NCBI GenBank assembly: GCA_025642065.1
Contig: JAODUP010000065.1
Span: 1,263,562-1,327,561, forward strand
Direction of reading: 5' to 3'
DNA: 64,000 nucleotides
Source of the DNA: Paralvinella palmiformis
Taxonomy: Eukaryota > Annelida > Polychaeta > Terebellida > Alvinellidae
Below, piece after piece: positions 431 to 63,405 of the stretch. A program made the position numbers and the translations under genes. Numbering within the stretch: position 1 is the stretch's first letter; every line of letters starts with the position of its first letter. The notes under the pieces were generated by a model, which saw nothing but the letters and a program-made list of their open reading frames with translations, was not told the DNA's origin and searched no databases.

Positions 431-921
431 TGCTCCATTTTGGTTTATTTAGAATTGTTGCCTTGTTATTGTAATGCAGGAATGTGAGAAAATAGTCACT
501 ACCACAGCTATCCTCGTGAACAAATCATTCAAATTTAAGAAATAATGATGGGCTGCACAAGGACAAGTCGATGGCAGATGGTGACCCAGTTGCTGAATTG
601 ATATATGTCTGTGTATTATCATTTCACAAGCACAGTTGATTGTGTTCAATCAAGTTTGCTAATGTGTTTCCCTTAGTAATTATTTGATGCATTTCCCATA
701 TGGTGCTGTGAGGCATTCATATCACCGATTAAAATGCGAGGGGAAGGAAGCTGGCTTATTAATTGGTCCAGTTAATTTCCACCTAGTTGGTAGCTTGGTG
801 GAATATATATTCAAAACAATGTTATTATATTGTGGAGTTACAGCGTCACAACAACTGCCTGCAGGTCGGTCGTTAAACTGATTTGTCGGCGGGGAATCGA
901 TGTTTTAATCATAATGGTGAC
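431..921 (-). repeat. Partial tandem duplicate of the LINE endonuclease segment
   Basis: Positions about 455-921 repeat the content of about 925-1400. Both contain the block beginning gccttgttattgtaatgcag / gccttgtttttataatgcag, the block around aataatgatgggctgcaca, and the block around ggaaggaagctggcttat, in the same order. At about 905-935 the first copy (ending aatggtgactcc) joins abruptly to the start of the second (tctgccttgtt). This is a head-to-tail duplication of about 0.47 kb inside the element. The left copy has more frame damage than the right. Confidence 0.8.
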
Positions 922-1589
922 TCCAAGTCTGCCTTGTTTTTATAATGCAGAAATGTTGGGAAATGGTCACTGCCACAGAGATCTTCATGTACAGACCACC
1001 CAAAATCAAGAAATAATGATGGGCTGCACAGGAACAAGTCTATGGCAGATGATGACCCGGTTGCTGGATCGATATATGTATGTGTGTTAACATTCCACAA
1101 GCACAGCTCATTATGTTCAATGAACTTTTCTAATGTGTTGCCCTTATTATTATTTTGTGCATTCCCCCATATGGTGCTGTGGGCATTCATATCACCAATT
1201 AAAATGAAAGGGAAAGGAAGCTGGCTTATCAATTGATCCAGTTCATGTCCACTAAGTGGATAGCTTGGTGGAATATATATTGAACAAAATATCATGGTAT
1301 TATATTGTGACATAGTCACAGTAACTGCCTGCAGATTGGTCTTTAAAATGATTTGTCTATGGGGGATAGCTTTCTTTATCATGATGGTGACTCCTATGAA
1401 TGCTTTGGTGTCGATTGCTTCAGAACATGTGTGGTATGAGGAGTATTTCTTCAAATTAATTATATTTGTGATTGTCATATTAGGTTTTTCAGCAGAATGC
1501 AATGGGTCATAGTTCCGCATTAGCATTTTTATTTCGTCTGTATTATTTCTAAATCCTATACAATTCCAATTTATGAAAGACTGGTCCAA
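909..1589 (-). mobile_element. APE-type endonuclease domain of Jockey-like LINE (copy 1, 226 codons open)
   Basis: A 226-residue open frame. In order it shows an N-terminal NWNCIGFR block (about residue 8), GDMNAHSTIWG (about residue 132, the metal and catalytic Asp/Asn motif), SSSAIDLFLC (about residue 180) and GSDHFPT (about residue 207, the catalytic Asp-His pair). These are the diagnostic APE/EEP endonuclease motifs that nick target DNA for target-primed reverse transcription. The usual QE(T) motif is damaged here (AEKPNM), whereas the copy at 12875-13099 keeps CCQETYM, so this copy lacks a catalytic glutamate. The frame is open but the surrounding RT is absent, so it is a fragment, not a working gene. 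Confidence 0.88.
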
Positions 1590-10965: not shown

Positions 10966-11990
10966 TCACAAAAACAATCGCCCCCTAATCAAGTTGAGAT
11001 CTAATGACTGCTCTATAGAGTGTTGTTCGATCTGCCCCCAGTCAAATCGAGAAACGACTTTTAATAGATTTAGGGATTTATTACATTTAGTCTTCATATA
11101 ATTTATTTGTGGAATGAAGGAGAGCTTGCTGTCGAATATTACTCCGAGGAATTTGGTTTGTTTTAAAACAGGAATATCAACCCCATAAAGATTTAGAGTC
11201 TGGTCTGGATTAAATGTTCTTTGTTGGCAGAAGTGCACACAGACTGTTTTGGACCTGGATAATTTGAAGCTATTCTCATCAGCCCAATTTTCTAATTTAT
11301 TGAGGCACAACTGGATAATTATTTCTATGGAATTCATGTTTTTTGACTGGTAGCTTATCGGGAAGTCATCTACGTATAAGGAACAGTTAACACCATTCAG
11401 CAAGCATTTAACTATGCTATTTATTTTCATGCTGAATAGTGTTACTGATAATTTGGAAATAAATGTTGGCATATTCCCACGAAGTCCTGCATTATATAAG
11501 TCTTTTGTAATTCCATATTTCCATGTTGTGTCGTATGCCTTCTCTGGATCTAAAACTATCCCCACAGTATGTTGCCCCTTTATGAATCCCTCCCTTATTA
11601 TAGTTTCTAATTTAATTAGGTGATCTTGGTGGATCTATGTTTTCTAAAATCACTCTAATGGGATATGACAATGGCATGATATTCGAGATACCAGACTAAC
11701 TTGGTATTTACCATCCGCTCAAAAGTTTTACAAATACAACTTGTGAGTGCTATTGGACGGTAATTACCAGGATCTGAGAGATTTGTTCCTGCTTTGGGGA
11801 TTGGGATGATGGTGGCTTCTTTCCACTGGGTAGGGAAGTCACCACCATTCCATATTTCATTGTATATGACGAGCAGGACTTCTAATGATTTCTCAGGAGT
11901 TTTAATATCTGGTAGTGAATATTATCAGGTCCAATGGCAGTATCATGGGCTTTCTTGAGAGAATCCAGTAGTTCTCTCATAGACAATATT
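10966..11990 (-). mobile_element. LINE reverse transcriptase domain with internal deletion (copy 2)
   Basis: Near 11660-11990 the minus strand gives the RT fingers: KEATIIPIPKAGTNLSDPGN, then YRPIALTSCICKTFERMV. Frame 10966-11565 then shows LDPEKAYDTTWKYGI (first catalytic Asp), a jump from FISKL to SVTLFSMKIN, then CSLYVDDFPISY (catalytic YVDD), WADENSFKLSRSKTVCVHF and TKFLGVIFDSKLSF. The jump removes the QG(S/I) region that normally lies between the two. The frame stays open across the deletion. The enzyme would copy LINE RNA at nicked DNA, but without that block it should be inactive. Confidence 0.9.
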
Positions 11991-16744: not shown

Positions 16745-17429
16745 GATCCTTTTAATGGATCCTTGTGTTAGTGTAGTGTCACGCACAGGGGCAAATGTAT
16801 GGCAGTTTTGTCGATACGCATGAAACGAACTCCGTAATTGGATTCAGTATTCCCAATATTTGCGTAACACATTGCATGGGTGAGCACATTTGTGTAATGG
16901 GATATACGCCCTTGCATAAACGATCTAAATGTAACACGCGCCAAAATCATAATAATACATATATGATTAGTTCCCCGGTAAAATAATATTTCCTAAAGTC
17001 TACATTAAATATTTTTAAATCTTCATTAAAATCAATTTACATTATTTTAAAATAATTTATTTAACCCATTGAAAGCTATACTAAAAATCCCCTACAAGTC
17101 AACATGAATAAGTAAGGCTTAGCTGTATCGAAAAGGCCGTACCAACAACACGTGGAGTGGCATACGGTAATAGATGTTTCAGAAAGCTGCTGCAACCTTA
17201 TGGAATAATATTCCATTAACCATCAGACCCCTGATACCTCCAAAAAGAAGATAAAAACTATTTTTTTTGTTTCAGCCTTTCCTAGCTGAATATATTACGT
17301 GTTTGGCTGGAAAGAATTATGTATTTTTAAAGATGTAAATCTGTTACATCCACAGAATTATTTGTTGTCAATCGCCTTAGAATAACCTTCTTACAGGTTA
17401 TATAGGGCGCTATATACATTTTGTATATT
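16745..17429. other. Non-coding, no gene seen
   Basis: No recognisable family. The 3' portion contains a gcgctatatacattttgtatatta block (about 17406-17429) that resembles the tail of invertebrate SINEs and leads into the minisatellite. Confidence 0.45.
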
Positions 17430-17945
17430 ATTATATGAAACGGAAATGTGTGTAATGAGCACGCCACAAGTAGCGTTATTGCAACTTACATGTTCACGTT
17501 ACGATTTCTGTTTGTACTATATGAAACGGAAATGTGTATCCAGCATGCCATGCGTGGCGTTATAGAACCGTACGTGTGCGTGTTATAATTTGATGTATTA
17601 TATTAAACAAAAATGTGTGTCCTGATCATGCAATGCCTAGAAAATAGCACCGTACATGTTATAATTTCATGTTCTACTGCTCCGAAACAGTTGTGCGCTT
17701 AGATCATACCACGGATCGCATATAGCACTATATATATATATATATAAAATAGAGAGAGAGAGAGACGTTATGATTTAATGTACTGCATCGTCCGGAAATA
17801 TTGTTCACATGTATTGCTTAGAACACCCTACACACGCGCGTTATGGTTTTATGTTGTACTACATAGTCGGGAAAAGTAGAGCGTCCCGCTCATGCCATAA
17901 AGCACATTGATTTAATGTTGTACTGTATTTCACACGTTATGATTA
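17430..17945 (+). repeat. Degenerate minisatellite, about six copies of a ~66-108 bp unit
   Basis: A recurring unit carries three landmarks in order: a (g/t)tactatatgaaacgg-aaatg-like box, a cat-gccatgcgta-gcgttatag-acc box, and an acgtg(t)gcgttatgattt box. Unit starts fall at about 17430, 17516, 17598, 17672, 17780, 17853 and 17919 (the last truncated). The fourth is lengthened by an internal (TA)n(GA)n tract at 17731-17765. Divergence between units is high, so the array is old. Confidence 0.75.
17731..17765. repeat. (TA)n(GA)n compound microsatellite
   Basis: A short TA run followed by a GA run, inside the fourth minisatellite unit. Confidence 0.9.
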
Positions 17946-18683
17946 TAAGGTTAGTCCGTAAGGTGCTGCTACCTAATCTTTGCAAATGTACATAGCATTG
18001 TGTTGCCATTTATAAAACGACTGCCTCCAACGTAAACGCGTCAAGTTTGTTACAACATTGACCCAGTAGCCAAACATTAGACCACATTTGTGTGTTCTGA
18101 CGAATTCTAATTAAACCCGATATATTCAAAGCTAGAATTAATTACATCTACAGTTGTACTGACGTATTATAGATTTAGCAATGTGATGAAAATTGGAAAG
18201 CCACTAGAACTTGTTGAGGTCATAGCGGTAGACTGGCCTTTACCGGAGAACCCACGGATCCCGGAAATAAATACGTACGGTATGTATACATGACGTGCGT
18301 GACATGGTACGTGATATGACGTTGAAATTCAACGTCATTGTCTATACCTCGACCCAATATCCAAGAATGGATAATACAGAGAATGTACCTCTACTGAATA
18401 CCTGAAACTATTTTCTTTAATGCTTATCAGTGGCCATGTCTGATGAAACGGAGATCATTGTCAGCAAAGTTATATTAATTCCATTTGGATGAATTATTAA
18501 TATTATTGTCGAGTTATTGTGAAGGTGTTCAAGTTATTAGTAGAAGGAAGATTAGTTGCTATGGAGAAAGCAATTGTGAAAATTTGAAGATTTCCAAGCT
18601 TTATTGGTGTGACAAATGATATCCACATACCCATCAGAGAGAGCTTGAATTAGTATAGTTTGATAATTGCTTTGTGGTGGTAG

Positions 18684-19079
18684 TTAGGAATGGGAGAAAT
18701 CACAGCCTTTAATAAGAGCACTGGTGTATGTGCTCAGGTCAACTAGAAAAATCCCATCTTTCTTGATGAGTTTTAGCAAGGGAAGTGATTGGTAACCATC
18801 ATCTACTTCACATACCTGATCATCAACTTGCATAGATTTGATTGATTTGGGAGGAGCTGGGTCAATATTGACAGTCAAATCAGGCCTAAAGCTACAGCCA
18901 AAAGGAACATCTTTAACTTGACCTTTACCCTTCCCTTTCTCCTTTGTGTTCTCAGTACCAACTTTCGTATTTTTCTCAGTCTCAGTCCTTTCTCTGATAG
19001 GAGTGCTCGTTAAGACTAAAATGGCACCTTTCTTTTGAACTCTTTTATTCTTCCGAGGGGATGATTTGGGAATTGGCAA
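18684..19079 (-). mobile_element. C-terminal frame of pogo-like transposase
   Basis: A 131-residue open frame starting with the basic PIPKSSPRKNKR tract. The LTSTPIRERTE motif is the C-terminal signature often seen in pogo/Tigger proteins (S..lTdTP.k..iE). The remaining 90 residues (RPDLTVNIDPAPPKSIKSMQ, then VDDQVCEVDDGYQSL) are not recognised and may be element-specific. The preceding frame (19140-19390) is in a different phase. Confidence 0.7.
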
Positions 19080-20270
19080 TATGTTTTCAAATGTTGAGAC
19101 ATCTGCTTCACCTCCATGATGCTTATTCGTCTCATGGCCTTACTTTTCTGCTTTATCCTCTATGCTAGTTGCAATTGTATCGTGATTCCCAGCTAACGGT
19201 TCATCAATGGGGCCTTGACCAATGATGGAGGATTCAGGGTCTAGGTCACTGGTAGAGCATTCGATTCCCTCTGCAATTTCGCAGTGGTTCCATTGGATGG
19301 TCAGCGACGAGGGAAGGAGCAAACTCTTCATCACCAAAGATATTGTAATAGAAGGGAGATTTTCTTATTGGTCAAAACCCATATATAATATTTTGTGATG
19401 TGAACACATGATGTAAAGTATACTGACTTGCCTATTACCAAGCCGTTAGTGTCTAGTGAACCGTTGATAGCTAGGCTTCACGCAGTTCACAGAAACACCC
19501 GGAGCGTGATAAAGCAAGCGGCAGGCATCATACTATTTAGAAATAACTAATAAATTTGATATTAATGGAAAAACAACGACTTAAAAAGAGAGTGTCAGAT
19601 TACTGGGATTATTTAATAAACGATAAAAACCGTGATATGAAATCCAAACGAGATAGAGTTAAATTTATATAAGTGGGCATGCACCGATATGAAAAGATAA
19701 TACTAAGTCAATTAGAAACAAATTATCTTTAGAGTTATCAATTAAGTACTGATACGATCAGATAATTGATGCCTGGCCGCAAGTATCACGCTGGGTCCCT
19801 GGTCCGGGGAATGGCTGTATAAGCCAGTAGCGACTGACTCATGGCACAGGCTGTGCCGAATAAACGACAGCCTGGTGATTCTCCCCAACAACAAAGCCAA
19901 CTCATGGCAGAGAGCGAATAAGTAGTGAATGAAGCAGTGTCTCTCGCAACTAGATATAGCGACATATAGGCTATACTGAGGTGGAAAGGTCAAAATAACC
20001 CCATTTTCTTTTGCAAAGTTGATGACCTGAGCCCAAACGGGGAATCGTGGTTATACAAGACAACCCCAATACTGCCGGGTGAAGCTCCTCTCAATATGTT
20101 GTAACAAAAATGACCCTAGGAAATACAAACATTGGTGGGACATAATTCTCAAAAGTATATTGATGGGCATTAGCATTGTAACTAATGTTCCACACTCTGC
20201 TGATGTTCCTTTTCCGACTTGTTTTTCCTGTCTAGGAGCTATAACCTGGAACTTCCCCATATCTTGAACT
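18684..20270 (-). mobile_element. pogo/Tigger-like DDE transposase remnant A
   Basis: Read leftward. At 20160-20270: MGKFQVIAPRQEKQVGKGTS, then AECGTLVTMLMPIN, the block that in Tigger-type transposases reads vlA.+g.KQVGKvTSaErGtLVT (normally followed by PPmFVFPR, present at 20110-20160 in another frame). At 19742-20010: VINFAKENGVILTFPPQYS, the second DDE strand region. At 19290-19390: NIFGDEEFAPSLVADHPMEP, the conserved segment after the catalytic core. At 18684-19079: PIPKSSPRKNKRVQKKGAI, then LVLTSTPIRER, the basic C-terminal tail. The order and orientation agree with one element. Frames shift at least three times and the Asp motifs are not all intact. Confidence 0.82.
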
Positions 20271-20838
20271 TGTCATGGTAGTTAGGCCCACTGTTTCCCG
20301 CTATTTCCTATAATAATAATTTCTAAATAGTGACAACAAATAATTGTGCTTCGTGCCTCTCAATATCTCTCCCACAGAGGACAAATTACTGGATTATTAA
20401 AAATAAAGGGGGACGTTAAAGACCCCATGAGGCAGTAAAACACTCTGGCAGTGACCACCTTCAGGATATTTCGGCTTCATCTTTCCGTACTGCTCCCCTG
20501 TGAGTGGTAGGGGAGGAGTATTTTCAACCACTCCAACATAGAGGCTCCCTGAAAAACAAATCAATCAATCAATAACTTGCTATCAGATTCACTTCTATGA
20601 TTGTCAAAATAATAACAGAGCAATATGTCCAGTGAGAAAACGTTGTAGCGTTAATATTTCTCCTGCCCAGAACTGTGACATCTGTCAACTAATTCCACTA
20701 AACAGACCTTTATGTTGGATTTTTATTCTGGTAATTTATTGTCATAAATGTTCAAAATAAATAAATAAATACACCATAAGACTATAAGTGTCATTGGAGT
20801 TCCAATGGATGTTGATATTATTTGGTACCTACAACGGA
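20110..20838. repeat. Tandem unit copy I, S segment
   Basis: A 0.73 kb segment (landmarks gacataattctcaaaagta at 20139 and ggtacctacaacgg ending at 20838) that recurs at 21391-22118 and 22805-23510 with almost no differences. It contains the pogo transposase block (20160-20270, minus) and a headless SINE body (20400-20575). Copy I is the one whose left flank continues naturally into the rest of the pogo transposase, so it is probably the original junction. Confidence 0.9.
20400..20575 (+). repeat. SINE body without tRNA head, unit I
   Basis: Runs from ataaagggggacgttaaaga to a (caat)n tail, gaaaaacaaatcaatcaatc. The body matches 52992-53144 downstream of a tRNA-like head, so this copy is a 5'-truncated member of that SINE. 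It also occurs at about 21680-21857 and 23060-23239. Confidence 0.75.
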
Positions 20839-21390
20839 CTTTTAAAAACAGAGTGTCAGATTACTTTTTGGGGTTATTTAATAAACTCATAAAAACCGGG
20901 CATAAATTTCCCAAACCGGAAAATTAAATTTATATAATCATCCCGTATAAAAGATTTAAAACTTTTTGTAATTAAAACCAGTATTTCTCTCAGAGTTCTT
21001 CAGCTTAAATATGTAGGGATCCCCCGGTTTAATAAATGTGGCCGTTAAGGGAACACGGCTTTTGGGTCCATTTTGGGGGAAACGCATACCCGGAAAATTA
21101 AACTCATGGCACAGAACTGTGCCGAATTTTAATTCATTAGCCTTATTCTGCCCTCAAAAAGCCAACCCCAAAGACAATAATTTAGTGAATAAACAGGGGT
21201 CTCAACGCCAAACTACAACATAGGGGGAAAAAATATACTATTAATGATCCGAAAGGGCCCCCAAAGGTCGACCCCATCATGCCTTTTCCAAAGTTGAGCC
21301 TAGCCCCAAAATGGGCCAATTGGTTAATCAACCACAAAACCCGTAATAATACCGTGTGACGCTCTCTCAATCAGAGAGTAGGACAAACAA
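20839..21390. other. Hybrid-consensus segment (probable assembly artefact)
   Basis: This block alternates every few bases between two unrelated neighbours: X (19579-20109, left flank of the first S copy) and B (22119-22810, right flank of the second). X-specific runs include gagtgtcagattact and actcatggcacag. B-specific runs include tatttctctcag, aacgcataccc and aatatactatta. Homopolymers are inflated (for example gggcccccaaagg). No ordinary recombination interleaves two sequences at this scale; merging two read populations in a consensus step does. Confidence 0.85.
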
Positions 21391-22804
21391 ATGACCCTAG
21401 GAAATACAAACATTGGTGGGACATAATTCTCAAAAGTATTGATGGGCATTAGCATTGTAACTAATGTTCCACACTCTGCTGATGTTCCTTTTCCGACTTG
21501 TTTTTCCTGTCTAGGAGCTATAACCTGGAACTTCCCCATATCTTGAACTTGTCATGGTAGTTAGGCCCACTGTTTCCCGCTATTTCCTATAATAATAATT
21601 TCTAAATAGTGACAACAAATAATTGTGCTTCGTGCCTCTCAATATCTCTCCCACAGAGGACAAATTACTGGATTATTAAAAATAAAGGGGGACGTTAAAG
21701 ACCCCATGAGGCAGTAAAACACTCTGGCAGTGACCACCTTCAGGATATTTCGGCTTCATCTTTCCGTACTGCTCCCCTGTGAGTGGTAGGGGAGGAGTAT
21801 TTTCAACCACTCCAACATAGAGGCTCCCTGAAAAACAAATCAATCAATCAATAACTTGCTATCAGATTCACTTCTATGATTGTCAAAATAATAACAGAGC
21901 AATATGTCCAGTGAGAAAACGTTGTAGCGTTAATATTTCTCCTGCCCAGAACTGTGACATCTGTCAACTAATTCCACTAAACAGACCTTTATGTTGGATT
22001 TTTATTCTGGTAATTTATTGTCATAAATGTTCAAAATAAATAAATAAATACACCATAAGACTATAAGTGTCATTGGAGTTCCAATGGATGTTGCATATTA
22101 TTTTGGTACCTACAACGGCATGTCTTTATGATATAAACATGTGTGATGCAGATTATCGTTATGTCACGGACTTAGTATTCTGAAATTCTCATTTATCCGA
22201 CATATTTCCAAACCTTGGAGCATTAACTGATTCTGACCGTATTATCATCCTCGTCATCATGTTATTATTATTGTAATTAAACCTAGGTATTTCTCTCAGT
22301 GTTGCTTCTAGGCTCTAGCCTATGTGAGGGAGCTCCCCCTTAGGTTTTAAAAATGTGGAGGATTTTAAGGTAACACGGGCATTTGGCATGAATACCATTT
22401 AGGGGTGCAAACGCATACCCCCGGAATATTTAAACTGAACATGTAAAAGCACAGAACATTTTGATATTTTAATTTTCATTAGCATCTTATTGTGCCCGTT
22501 CAGAAATAGGCAACAAATACATATACACTTTACTTAATAGCAGGCGATCTCAACGCCAATACTACAACATGGGGATACAAAATATACTATTAAATGATCC
22601 CGAAGTCCCCATCACTGTCTATGGGTCGACCCTCGATCATGCCATTTTCCACTGAAGTTGCAGCCATAGCAGACTGGAGCCAATTAGAAGCTCTAACCTC
22701 AGACCACATAACCACAGTAATAATACTATGTGACGCTTTTACGAACATACCAGAGAGCCTAGGACAATACAAATGGGACACCAACAAAGCAAACTGGAAA
22801 CAAT
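21391..22804. repeat. Tandem unit copy II (S + B)
   Basis: S segment 21391-22118, then B segment 22119-22804. B holds the end of a LINE endonuclease (GDLNANTTTWGYKI at about 22531, plus strand). It is followed directly by unit III, with a spacing of 1391 bp measured at gacataattc (21420 to 22811). Confidence 0.9.
22531..22800 (+). mobile_element. LINE endonuclease C-terminal part (unit II copy)
   Basis: Reads YLIAGDLNANTTTWGYKIY (the GDxNA..xxW motif of APE endonucleases), then in shifted frames VPITVYGSTLDHAIF, then IADWSQLEALTSDHITTVI (the SDH catalytic pair) and YKWDTNKANWKQ (the start of the linker to RT). It is truncated by the tandem-unit junction at about 22800. Its identical twin in unit III continues further. 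Confidence 0.78.
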
Positions 22805-24195
22805 TGGTGGGACATAATTCTCAAAAGTAGTGATGGGCATTAGCATTGTAACTAATGTTCCACACTCTGCTGATGTTCCTTTTCCGACTTGTTTTTCCTG
22901 TCTAGGAGCTATAACCTGGAACTTCCCCATATCTTGAACTTGTCATGGTAGTTAGGCCCACTGTTTCCCGCTATTTCCTATAATAATAATTTCTAAATAG
23001 TGACAACAAATAATTGTGCTTCGTGCCTCTCAATATCTCTCCCACAGAGGACAAATTACTGGATTATTAAAAATAAAGGGGGACGTTAAAGACCCCATGA
23101 GGCAGTAAAACACTCTGGCAGTGACCACCTTCAGGATATTTCGGCTTCATCTTTCCGTACTGCTCCCCTGTGAGTGGTAGGGGAGGAGTATTTTCAACCA
23201 CTCCAACATAGAGGCTCCCTGAAAAACAAATCAATCAATCAATAACTTGCTATCAGATTCACTTCTATGATTGTCAAAATAATAACAGAGCAATATGTCC
23301 AGTGAGAAAACGTTGTAGCGTTAATATTTCTCCTGCCCAGAACTGTGACATCTGTCAACTAATTCCACTAAACAGACCTTTATGTTGGATTTTTATTCTG
23401 GTAATTTATTGTCATAAATGTTCAAAATAAATAAATAAATACACCATAAGACTATAAGTGTCATTGGAGTTCCAATGGATGTTGCATATTGTTTTGGTAC
23501 CTACAACGGCATGTCTTTATGATATAAACATGTGTGATGCAGATTATCGTTATGTCACGGACTTAGTATTCTGAAATTCTCATTTATCCGACATATTTCC
23601 AAACCTTGGAGCATTAACTGATTCTGACCGTATTATCATCCTCGTCATCATGTTATTATTATTGTAATTAAACCTAGGTATTTCTCTCAGTGTTGCTTCT
23701 AGGCTCTAGCCTATGTGAGGGAGCTCCCCCTTAGGTTTTAAAAATGTGGAGGATTTTAAGGTAACACGGGCATTTGGCATGAATACCATTTAGGGGTGCA
23801 AACGCATACCCCCGGAATATTTAAACTGAACATGTAAAAGCACAGAACATTTTGATATTTTAATTTTCATTAGCATCTTATTGTGCCCGTTCAGAAATAG
23901 GCAACAAATACATATACACTTTACTTAATAGCAGGCGATCTCAACGCCAATACTACAACATGGGGATACAAAATATACTATTAAATGATCCCGAAGTCCC
24001 CATCACTGTCTATGGGTCGACCCTCGATCATGCCATTTTCCACTGAAGTTGCAGCCATAGCAGACTGGAGCCAATTAGAAGCTCTAACCTCAGACCACAT
24101 AACCACAGTAATAATACTATGTGACGCTTTTACGAACATACCAGAGAGCCTAGGACAACACAAATGGGACACCAACAAAGCAAACTAGAAACAAT
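22805..24195. repeat. Tandem unit copy III (S + B)
   Basis: Nearly identical to unit II. Differences seen by eye include attatttt versus attgtttt at about 23488, caatac versus caacac at about 24156, and actgg versus actagaa at about 24186. Beyond 24186 the B segment continues into the rest of the LINE (24190-24470), so unit III carries the natural right junction. Confidence 0.9.
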
Positions 24196-29169: not shown

Positions 29170-30160
29170 GCAATCAGTTGGATTAGCAGATAACTGCAGA
29201 ATGCACAGATTAAACCTCACTTCATACAGACAGAAAGATAGTGAAAGTATTAATGAATTCCATACTAGATGCGGAGGTCAAGGATTAAATAGTCAGTTCT
29301 AGGATATGGACGATAGAAAGAATTATCAGCTGATTAATAACGCTGTGTTAAATGACTCACGAAAAGAGTTGTTGAAGGAGTCTGACTCACTTACTACTGA
29401 TGATGCACTGAAGAAGTGGAGAATGCATGAGGCATCGCAAGCCCATATGAAAGCATTAGAAAAGCGATTGGTCAAACATTGTCAATGTGATAGAAAAAAG
29501 ACCAAAGTACAAGCAAGGTACATCAAAGATTGTAATGTCTGTGCCACTAGCCATGAATCAAAGCTCACAAGGGCACATTATGGTGGAAAGGATAGGCGTC
29601 ATAGACATATACAAATGTCAGTACTATTAATATTGAAGTAGATGAATTGTGAACATGGTCCTTGTCAATGTTGATATTCCAAACTACAAGGACAAACCAG
29701 AGCTCATTTGTAAAGTGTATACAGTGTACAGTCTATATGACTATATAAAACTATGTTGTCTCATTTGGTTGGGAAACATGGAAAGAAGCCCTATCTGATG
29801 CTGAATGCATATGACGGTAGGATTTACCACAGTGTGGTTATATTTGTCTACGTGCATTCCATTGATGACGAGAATCCAGGAACAATTATAATAGGGAGGT
29901 GTACAAATGAAGCGGTCGAAATAATTATAGTGACTACTGTAGCTGAAATGACTGTGTGTAGTGAACCAAGGAACATTCAAGATGCACATGCACTTAAAGA
30001 TGCATACCCTGATCGATTTGATGGAATTGGTAAATTCCTAGAAATTAAACCAATCATTAGCCCACCGAGAAAATATCAAGTCCAGTGGTTTAAGCTCAGA
30101 AACTGTTTCAATCCGAGAACTTTTAATCTAGCATTGCAACGTACATACCATTGAACTCCA
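29170..30160 (+). mobile_element. Ty3/gypsy element B: gag end, protease and RT entry
   Basis: At 29210-29640 the frame reads LTSYRQKDSESINEFHTRCG, then LLKESDSLTTDDALKKWRMH, then EASQAHMKALEKRL. This matches the gag helix region common to gypsy elements annotated as K02A2.6-like (R..dsEsideF.tRC...r..LL...d.Lt...al...r..Ea), followed by a knuckle-like CNVCATSHESKLTRAHYGG. Frame 29753-30154 gives the protease/RT junction: RIYHSVVIFVYV, then DAYPDRFDGIGKFLEIKPII, then RNCFNPRTFNLALQRTYH, the last matching (L)DPrdLN.Al.R.hH just before the RT core. Both frames are long, but the element is frameshifted between them. Confidence 0.8.
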
Positions 30161-31540
30161 ATGGTGGAAGAGTTAAAGTTAAAGTGTTTATTAAGCTAGA
30201 TGCTAAGCACGGTTATTTGACCATACAGCTCTTTGTCTGCGAGTTTCTCAAGATGTGTTCCAGGAGAAAATGGATATTATTCTATCTAGATGTGAAGGAA
30301 CAATGAATATTGCCGATGATATTCTAGTGTTTGGAGAGGGTGACGAAACTCATGATCATAATCTGCATAATCTAAATTCTAATGTAAAGAGCCAGAACAA
30401 GTGGCTTGATATTTATGTTAAATGAAAATGAATGAAGTTGATTTTTTCAGTATGACGTACACTAGAGATTGTGCAGTACATAGCTCCATTCATGCTGATA
30501 CTCTGAGAGAAAATGTCAGTAGTAAGAGACTTAGTAAAAAAGGATAAACCATGGATATGATACACGTGTCAGAGTGATGCTTTTCAAGCTATCAAAAATC
30601 AGATATGTAATACAGTAACATCAAAAGGCCTTAATTTTGGGGGAAATTTACAAAAAATTAAAAAAAGCAAAACGAAAAAAATTTTCAATTGGGAAGGGGG
30701 TTAAAAGGGCCAGAGGGGGGAAAAAAAAAATTGATATAGCTCAAAAACAGAAGTCAAGCACCTCCAAGGTTGTAATCATTGTTGTTAAACAAACCCAACC
30801 ATAAGATATCATGATAAAGTATAGGCCGGGAAAAGAACTGAACATTATTAGCTTATGTATTGTCACATCTCAACCGTCTTATGAGAAGATCACATAACAC
30901 TGGATCATTCGCTATATTATTTCGTGTTATGTGAATTACTGGATGTTGTAAAAAGAAAGGTTGACCTGAAAAAGCACGGGATCCATGTAAGATGATCAGA
31001 CATTATTGGTCGTTGAAAGACTTTATTTCAATAGAAAATGCTGTTTTATTTAAAAGTCACAGAGTTATAATTCCACAACTTCAGTCATCGAGGAATTGAA
31101 AAGACACATTGACTTGTAAGAACGTGAGTCTATTGAAGAGGCATAGATCAAGACATTGAAAGTCTAATTAGCACATGTCATATTTGTTTGATAATACAGT
31201 AGAAGTGAGCAGAAAGAGTTGATTACTACACGACGTTCCACCAAGAGCATGATAACATATCAGGACTTTTCTGTTTAAGTTAAGAGTTCATCATTGTTAC
31301 AGATTATTCTAATAAGATGGCACTCATCAGATGTATTAACTCGGAATCAAACAGGACTGTTCAAAACTTGTAAACTATATTTGGTGAACACGGAATTCAG
31401 GACACGGCATAGACTGATCCAGGCGAAATGCATGTTATTTCATATAACACGGAGACTGAGACTAGTATTTCAGCTGAATGATTGTCTTTCCAAAGGATTT
31501 AACACAATAGTTATCATGTTTTCCAGGACGTTTGAGAACT
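30160..31540 (+). mobile_element. Ty3/gypsy element B: decayed RT, RNase H and integrase
   Basis: Near 30190-30230: IKLDAKHGYLTIQLF (RT, the catalytic Asp strand). Near 30300: NIADDILVFGEGDETHDHNL, where the catalytic box reads ADDI, so both Asp are present in that reading. Near 30990-31090: RHYWSLKDFISIENAVLFKS, then HRVIIPQLQSS (the linker before integrase). Near 31210-31290: LLHDVPPRA, then a short remnant of the integrase core. The stretch between 30600 and 30740 is unreadable (homopolymer-rich). Frames change often. This lineage differs from gypsy A at 5440-9620. Confidence 0.72.
30625..30740. other. Homopolymer-rich, low-quality-looking stretch
   Basis: About 115 bp made almost entirely of A, G and T runs (gggggaaattt, gaaaaaaattttc, ggggggaaaaaaaaaattg). 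It falls in the middle of the gypsy B RNase H region, where codable sequence is expected. It has the same look as the hybrid block at 20839-21390. Confidence 0.6.
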
Positions 31541-34370: not shown

Positions 34371-34440
34371 ATAAACTTTCACTACAAATACGGCAATCTA
34401 CTTGTACAAGGGAAATATGTTCTGTGAATTACCACAAAGA

Positions 34441-34603
34441 ACTTCCTATTTAATCTATTTTATTTATTAAATCAATCTTCTTTGAATAGAAATATACTAA
34501 ATATCATCTTAACTTTAAAATAACTTCCTATTTAATCTATTTTGTTTACTAAATCAATCTTCTTTGAATAGAAATAAACTAAATATCATCTTAACTTTAA
34601 TTT
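34441..34603. repeat. Tandem duplication, two copies of ~82 bp
   Basis: Copy 1 at 34441-34521 and copy 2 at 34524-34603 share acttcctatttaatctattt, aatcaatcttctttgaatag and ctaaatatcatcttaacttt in order, with only a few differences. Confidence 0.92.
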
Positions 34604-44930: not shown

Positions 44931-45194
44931 ACACATGATAGGCTAAATGGGCCGAGTGACCTTCAAAGGTCATGAAGTGAAGTCAAAGATGAAACAACCT
45001 TTAGATATGCCCACGCTGAGATTCGAAACAGGTGGTAGTGATCTGTGGTCCAACACGCTGCCTCTATAACACAGAGTGACCTCCAAAGGCAATGAAGGAA
45101 GTCAGAGATGAAACACCCTTTAGATATGCCCACGCCAAGATTCAAACTCAGGTGGTAGTGATCTGTGGTCCAACGCCCTACCAACTAGACCATG
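44931..45194 (-). repeat. tRNA-derived SINE family 2, two tandem copies
   Basis: First copy about 44931-45071, second about 45072-45194; the second lacks the distal body. On the minus strand the second starts tggtctagttggtagggcgt (A-box-like TGGTCTAGTTGGTA), followed by cctgagtttgaatcttggcg (B-box-like). Confidence 0.82.
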
Positions 45195-45659: not shown

Positions 45660-45873
45660 ACCTAAACCTATATATACACATATACCTAATTGTATATGTA
45701 TGCATACCTAAGCCTATATATAAATAAAACACACCTAATCCTATGTAAACCATTACCAAAGCATATATCTATATCTATATCTAAACCTATATATATATAT
45801 ATATATCCATACACACAACTAAGCCTATATATACACTTATCTAAGCCTGTACATCACTAATCCCACATATAAT

Positions 45874-45913
<40 letters not shown>

Positions 45914-46135
45914 ATATATTAATATATATATATCCATACACACAACTAAGCCTATATATACACATATCTAAGCCTGTACATCACTAATCCCACATATAAT
46001 CCCTATATATATCCATACACACAACTAAGCCTATATATATATATATATCGAAGCCTGTACATCACTAATTCCACACATTCATAAACCTATATTTACACTA
46101 TATAATTTGTATATATATATATATAAAATTCATAA
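45660..46135. repeat. Complex tandem repeat with embedded (TA)n tracts
   Basis: A unit containing ccatacacacaactaagcct, then atctaagcctgtacatcact, then aatcccacatataatcc recurs at about 45806, 45934 and 46011, separated by expanding TATA tracts. It is flanked by shorter versions (cctaagcctatata) from 45660. Confidence 0.88.
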
Positions 46136-63059: not shown

Positions 63060-63405
63060 CCCGCCATTAATTAAGTTTAAAGATTGCCGCAAACGACCGC
63101 GATCCCGGATGAGTTTGCACCTGGCAAACTCGACTTTAAGGGATAGAGATCTTAGGGAGCCTGGATGATCAATTTGATATGGAGTATTAACCTGTGTTAA
63201 CAGGTAAAAAAGTTTGGGGCAAACCCTACCGTAGGGGATAGAGATCTTAGGAAGCCTGGGTGATCATTTTGCTATGGACTATTAACTAGTGTTAACTGGT
63301 AAATAAGTTTGGGGCAATGTGTTGGAAACATTTCTCAAATGCAGATGCCTGTCGCTCCGTTCAGCGCGTTACATTTGGTTTAGTTTTTCCCACCATCCTC
63401 CCCTG
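63060..63405 (-). repeat. Probable 3' LTR start and polypurine tract of gypsy C
   Basis: On the minus strand, downstream of the integrase/chromodomain stop (63542), a purine-rich tract acaggggaggatggtgggaa (about 63405-63386) is followed by tgtaacgcgctgaacggagc (from 63373). A PPT followed closely by a TG start is the expected layout at a 3' LTR. The LTR start could instead be the TGG inside the PPT-like run. The LTR body contains the 96-bp tandem duplication at 63139-63317. Confidence 0.5.
63139..63317. repeat. Tandem duplication (2 x ~96 bp) inside the putative LTR
   Basis: gggatagagatcttagg-agc, then ctgg-tgatca, then attaac-tgtgttaac-ggta, then aagtttggggca, at 63139-63221 and 63235-63317. 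Each copy holds a short inverted repeat (ACCTGT/ACAGGT in copy 1, ACTAGT/ACTGGT in copy 2). Confidence 0.9.

Follow-up and report, generated by a model that had tools for sequence, protein, structure and literature searches.

When reads of another copy or another haplotype are recruited in repeats, switch errors and overcorrection can arise in consensus or polishing, as described in the available parts of PMC8081667 and PMC12016036, with overcorrection in repeats being described in PMC12016036. In false (homotype) duplication, differing consensus quality is a mark described in the available part of PMC8081667. Here, we analysed a window of 64 kb at the very end of a 1.33-Mb contig, taken from an assembly of 594 Mb and 2597 contigs. 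Judging from its short ORFs and AT microsatellites, the window is probably eukaryotic. The window contains a block at 20839-21390 (forward strand, as are all features of this locus), hereafter H, which fits both of two neighbouring sequences, X and B, and which we judge not to be real sequence. H is like the repeat consensus errors described in the available parts of PMC8081667 and PMC12016036 in that reads of another copy would have been mapped to one place, with bases taken from both. Unlike the cases in those parts, which concern alleles or highly similar repeats, the sources of H are unrelated and share only their neighbour S; since the merged sequences are unrelated and S alone is common to them, the product would be a whole nonsense block. 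The locus is also like a false (homotype) duplication in its apparent extra unit, and unlike one, as far as the available part of PMC8081667 describes it, in that the junction at 22803 itself looks real. A search of open-licence full-text literature found no title or abstract start describing such a block.

The order of parts over 19.5-24.3 kb is X, S copy I, H, S copy II, B copy 1, S copy III, and B copy 2, beyond which other sequence continues. X (19579-20125) is an inner part of a repeat element, lies directly upstream of S copy I (20126-20838), and is one of the two sources of the blend. S copy II spans 21405-22117 according to the pairwise S comparison. B copy 1 (22119-22802) is made up of the end of the repeat element (bases 1-393) and, for the remainder, a LINE-like fragment; the initial annotation had placed B at 22119-22810, of which the start stands and the end moves to about 22802. 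S copy III (22803-23508) begins at the clean B-to-S junction of a tandem duplication, and B copy 2 (23509-24195) runs on rightward without a break. The S copies are identical at 706-709 of 713 positions in pairwise comparison. Copies I and II share 709 identical positions with 8 gap columns and no mismatches, and an extended comparison placed their differences near the two ends only. The two B copies differ at 2 of 684 bases. Thus, the same near-identical anchor S adjoins both sources, after X at 20126 and after B at 22803. No Rfam match was found in the window at the gathering score. Retroelement-type sequence is also present further away in the window, where an ORF at 909-1589 (reverse strand) matches a retroelement-type endonuclease (PF14529, E 6e-22) and an ORF at 10966-11565 (reverse strand) matches reverse transcriptase (PF00078, E 1.7e-9); judging from these matches, both are probably other retroelement remains. 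Tandem repeats of about two copies occur at 34436-34600 (unit of 82 bases), 44954-45174 (120 bases), 45763-46075 (127 bases, with 81), and 63140-63317 (95 bases).

Genome-wide searches with X, S, and B parts, in each of which 40 of many candidates were scored, show that X, S, and bases 1-393 of B are successive parts of one natural repeat. The S-B order was counted over 67 loci, and 16 distinct loci outside the present one carry the 3' end of S. Among the matches listed, the first part of B (1-393) follows S in 15 of these 16 loci at a distance of at most 25 bases, the exception being contig C1971, which has the S 3' end without B. On the other side, the end of X lies 13 bases upstream of S in all 7 loci that have S from its first base, again among the matches listed; this count leaves out C1596, an eighth listed locus with S from base 1, and in a larger search set the X-S order holds in 6 of 7, the weak X match of C2303 falling below threshold. 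Relatives of X at other loci reach 93% among the matches listed. In all 7 loci that match B over a long stretch, the match stops at base 392-394, and a second family starts there, with relatives of up to 97% over 162 bases among the matches listed. This second family appears to be a LINE endonuclease part, a LINE-like fragment read from protein pieces; a Pfam scan of three between-stop ORF pieces near B and downstream gave no match at the curated cut-off, so the label LINE is a reading of protein pieces and not a family hit. The repeat holding X, S, and the B head reaches upstream to at least 17.1 kb in the window; it measures several kb, occupies 17087-20838 together with 22119-22511, and has relatives elsewhere in the assembly. 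In contigs C1002 and C2303, arrays of short X and S subrepeats lie between X and S. Two short contigs, C1348 (locus L048, 14.7 kb), which ends inside S, and C1506 (locus L049, 12.4 kb), each carry X at 92%, and the assembly may be prone to break at the X-S-B repeat.

Because the B match ends at 392-394 with the second family beyond it, the tandem unit of the duplication at 22119-24195 can be given as 1391 bp that comprise S and the element end, followed by about 294 bases of the second family. The junction at about 22803 is clean, passing from ...aacaatt into the S start ggtggg..., with about 3 shared bases (att) as judged by eye. Tandem duplication with microhomology at the junction is an ordinary, known type of event. 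The present 1391-bp unit resembles it in its clean junction at about 22803 and its roughly 3 shared bases, with no difference noted, and the duplication looks real. The initial annotation had proposed an X-S-B structure with S-B repeated, and the X-S-B order seen at independent loci agrees with this.

H resembles two sequences that are unrelated to each other. In global alignment, H scored 247 to X (maximum of 200 dinucleotide shuffles, -77) and 359 to B (maximum of 200 shuffles, -86), whereas X and B scored -152 to each other, which is within their own shuffle range. Elsewhere in the window, 4692 stretches of 552 bp were compared, taken on both strands at a step of 25 with stretches overlapping X, H, or either B excluded, and none matched the H-X or H-B scores, the best reaching -38 and -24. 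The block had been described at the outset as a hybrid of X and B, and these scores, far above those of shuffles and of other stretches, bear that description out. Pairwise alignment with per-base assignment, as suggested in the initial annotation, attributed 347 of the 552 bases of H to both sources, 61 to X only, 130 to B only, and 14 to neither. Three alternative scorings gave similar values (both 342-358, X only 54-60, B only 125-132, neither 15-18). The assignment switches between X and B 56 times in 552 bases. Mixing on a fine scale is therefore confirmed, but not the picture of phrases of 5-20 bases each assignable to X or B, as most bases fit both and the source changes about every 10 bases. 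H keeps the bases that align in both sources and often drops those in between; for example, ggggatacaaaatatac in B becomes gggggaaaaaatatac. A 2×2 table of X-match against B-match within H showed no significant skew (p 0.12-0.55 over four scorings), and was rejected as a discriminator between a common ancestor and a merge, as it gave no separation.

The homopolymers of H set it apart from its neighbours. Its mean homopolymer run is 1.678, compared with 1.375 in X, 1.379 in B, and 1.426 in S, so that the inflated homopolymers reported earlier for the block are real features of the assembled sequence. The value is the maximum of the window: one of 1269 segments of 552 bp, starting at 20801 and overlapping H, reaches it. 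The blend extends beyond H on both sides. By eye, the end of S copy I (about 20813-20838, the last ~25 bases) lacks bases that are present in copies II and III and agrees with what lies upstream of X, so it is already blended, and the start of S copy II (about 21437) shows an intermediate state of a small indel; the final ~25 bases ahead of S copy II are X. The block first delimited at 20839-21390 accordingly stands as a core, and the whole blended, unreliable consensus spans 20813-21440, with borders judged by eye.

We then asked where in the assembly the two components of H could come from. A search of the whole assembly (594 Mb) with H returned 6 matches, of which one was full-length, namely H itself; next came the two local B copies (71%), the local X, and two short matches of the second family. 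Private sites, at which no aligned relative agrees with the local X or B, were examined in each part. The local base is present in H at 9 of 10 X-private sites (against 3 relatives), 13 of 16 sites private to the B head (against 6 relatives), and 6 of 11 sites private to the LINE-like part (against 3 relatives). When pooled, H agrees with the local copy at 28 of 37 sites and with the relatives at 1, and has a gap or third base at the other 8, with some lean towards the local base, as H was aligned to the local copy. When the LINE-like part was compared with 13 relatives, 5 of 10 sites had the local base, 1 the relatives' base, and 4 gaps. Moreover, H scored 193, 209, and 195 to the three local parts and at most 151, 119, and 136 to their relatives. 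As H shares private mutations of the local X and of the local B, it was made from these two neighbours; the sequence comparisons thus show a derivation from X and B of the present locus together, and not from other family members.

Consensus procedures were simulated with X and B as input. When simulated noisy reads of X and B were combined by plain partial-order consensus (3 scorings × 3 mixing ratios), homopolymers were not inflated, with a mean run of 1.36-1.40 in 9 runs. Six of the 9 results scored below B alone (586) to H, and the other three, at 587-588, were the 9:3 mixes and practically B. Some mixtures were seen, and in its simplest form this procedure was ruled out as the mechanism for its lack of inflation. 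Median-string optimisation of error-free X and B was run at five cost settings from two starts (10 runs). Flat costs left the starting sequence unchanged (mean run 1.38). The mean run was 1.47 and 1.39 when insertions alone were cheap, and 1.45-1.95 over the 6 runs of the three settings in which homopolymer deletion was cheap. These results led to a read-based polishing test, in which 3 X and 3 B noisy reads were polished after a partial-order draft at one setting, with extra read bases and missing homopolymer bases made cheap; this setting was picked post hoc after five had been tried. All 4 runs came close to H in texture: the length was 659-682 (646 for H with the same flanks), the mean run 1.78-1.85 (1.68), and the number of switches per 100 bp 10.0-12.6 (10.1), with shares of 0.60-0.62 for both (0.63), 0.12-0.15 for X only (0.11), and 0.24-0.27 for B only (0.23). 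Bases in neither source made up 0.003-0.007, lower than the 0.025 of H. The 4 matching runs do not spell H, scoring 301-476 compared with 506 for B and 353 for X. Two other cost settings (3 runs, one with 3 X and 4 B reads) fitted H more poorly. Mixes of 2 X and 4 B reads (2 runs) were mostly B-like, indicating that near-equal mixing of X and B is required. In the controls with pure X or pure B reads, mixing was practically absent from all 4 runs, and the mean run was 1.39. A polisher of the homopolymer-tolerant class can make the texture of H; as the costs were chosen after the median-string results, the simulation shows that the mechanism is possible and speaks to this class, not to the program behind H.

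Taken together, we put a probability of about 96% on H being an artefact of assembly consensus or polishing inside a real tandem duplication X-(S-B)n, with n at least 2. The initial annotation had likewise read the block as a consensus merge, and the local private sites, the single full match, and the X-S-B order support this; the polishing simulation agrees for one class of polisher, but not for plain partial-order consensus. We infer the read pile-up, the polisher type, and the value of n. The proposed course would start from a repeat element (X-S-B head) beside a LINE-like fragment, of which S, the B head, and about 294 bases of the LINE-like fragment (1391 bp) would have been tandemly duplicated. 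Reads across X-S and reads across B-S would then have been stacked on one draft position with S as the anchor, because S is the same in every unit. Facing near-equal numbers of unrelated X and B reads, the consensus would have retained the bases that co-align and taken a single source in places, and homopolymers would have been stretched because changes of homopolymer length are cheap in the consensus error model.

The assembly contains clean junctions of X-S once, S-B twice, B-S once, and B copy 2 to the right once. These fit X-S-B-S-B exactly, in which case S copy I with H, or H with S copy II, would be an extra false unit; X-S-B-S-B-S-B with the first B overwritten fits equally well, as do two alleles with different n. 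A special case of the artefact reading is that the blend joins two haplotypes, an X-S-B allele and an allele with more S-B units, collapsed into one. In that case too, X-S and B-S reads would be stacked at the first B, in the near-equal numbers that the 3:3 simulation requires. A piece of the right flank (29300-30300) searched against the assembly gave 7 matches including itself, the others at 86% or less, with no near-identical second contig and a best other long match of 78%, which fits a collapsed single contig. The same findings are met by mis-placement within one allele, from which nothing sets the two-haplotype version apart, and we regard this version as possible, with the odds somewhat against it.

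H might instead be a real biological mosaic of X and B that arose through gene conversion, through repair, or through serial template switching. Its alternating X and B bases are collinear, and it lies beside a tandem duplication that looks real. Such a process would be expected to leave few switches, placed in shared homology, but H has 56 switches in 552 bases without X-B homology as a guide, and the majority of its bases are compatible with X and B simultaneously. Template switching copies whole stretches and is not known to lengthen homopolymers throughout a block, whereas the mean homopolymer run of H is above that of both parents and of every 552-bp segment not overlapping it. No recombination process is known that would connect unrelated sequences 56 times within 552 bases and lengthen homopolymers as well; the earlier statement that recombination does not interleave in this way agrees with the switch count and the absence of X-B homology in H. 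That H is real DNA, produced by template switching about every ten bases between non-homologous neighbours in a tandem duplication, is extremely improbable, and we hold gene conversion or repair to be no better placed. Finally, the similarity of H to both X and B would also be expected if X and B had both diverged from one ancestral sequence and H were a real third copy of it, but X and B are different, mutually unrelated successive parts of one repeat elsewhere, the private sites in H are local in 28 of 37 cases and agree with the relatives in 1, and an ancestor model adjusted to give roughly the H-X and H-B scores observed (replacing an earlier simulation that was too little diverged) predicts mean X-B scores of 18, 8, and -25, with -85 as the lowest of 300 simulations, against the observed -152, so that we give this explanation next to no credence.

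The artefact reading has direct consequences for the use of this region. H is most likely an ordinary assembly artefact with no new biology. The interval 20813-21440 should be masked and left unannotated, and the assembly should not be relied on for the number of S-B copies. A consensus step can write several hundred confident-looking bases, with no N and no gap, that are probably present in no molecule. Such blocks are detectable from sequence by three marks combined, namely likeness to two unrelated neighbours that abut the same repeat, an excess of homopolymers, and the presence of private mutations of both neighbours. H is a clear example of a long consensus chimera that is recognisable without reads.
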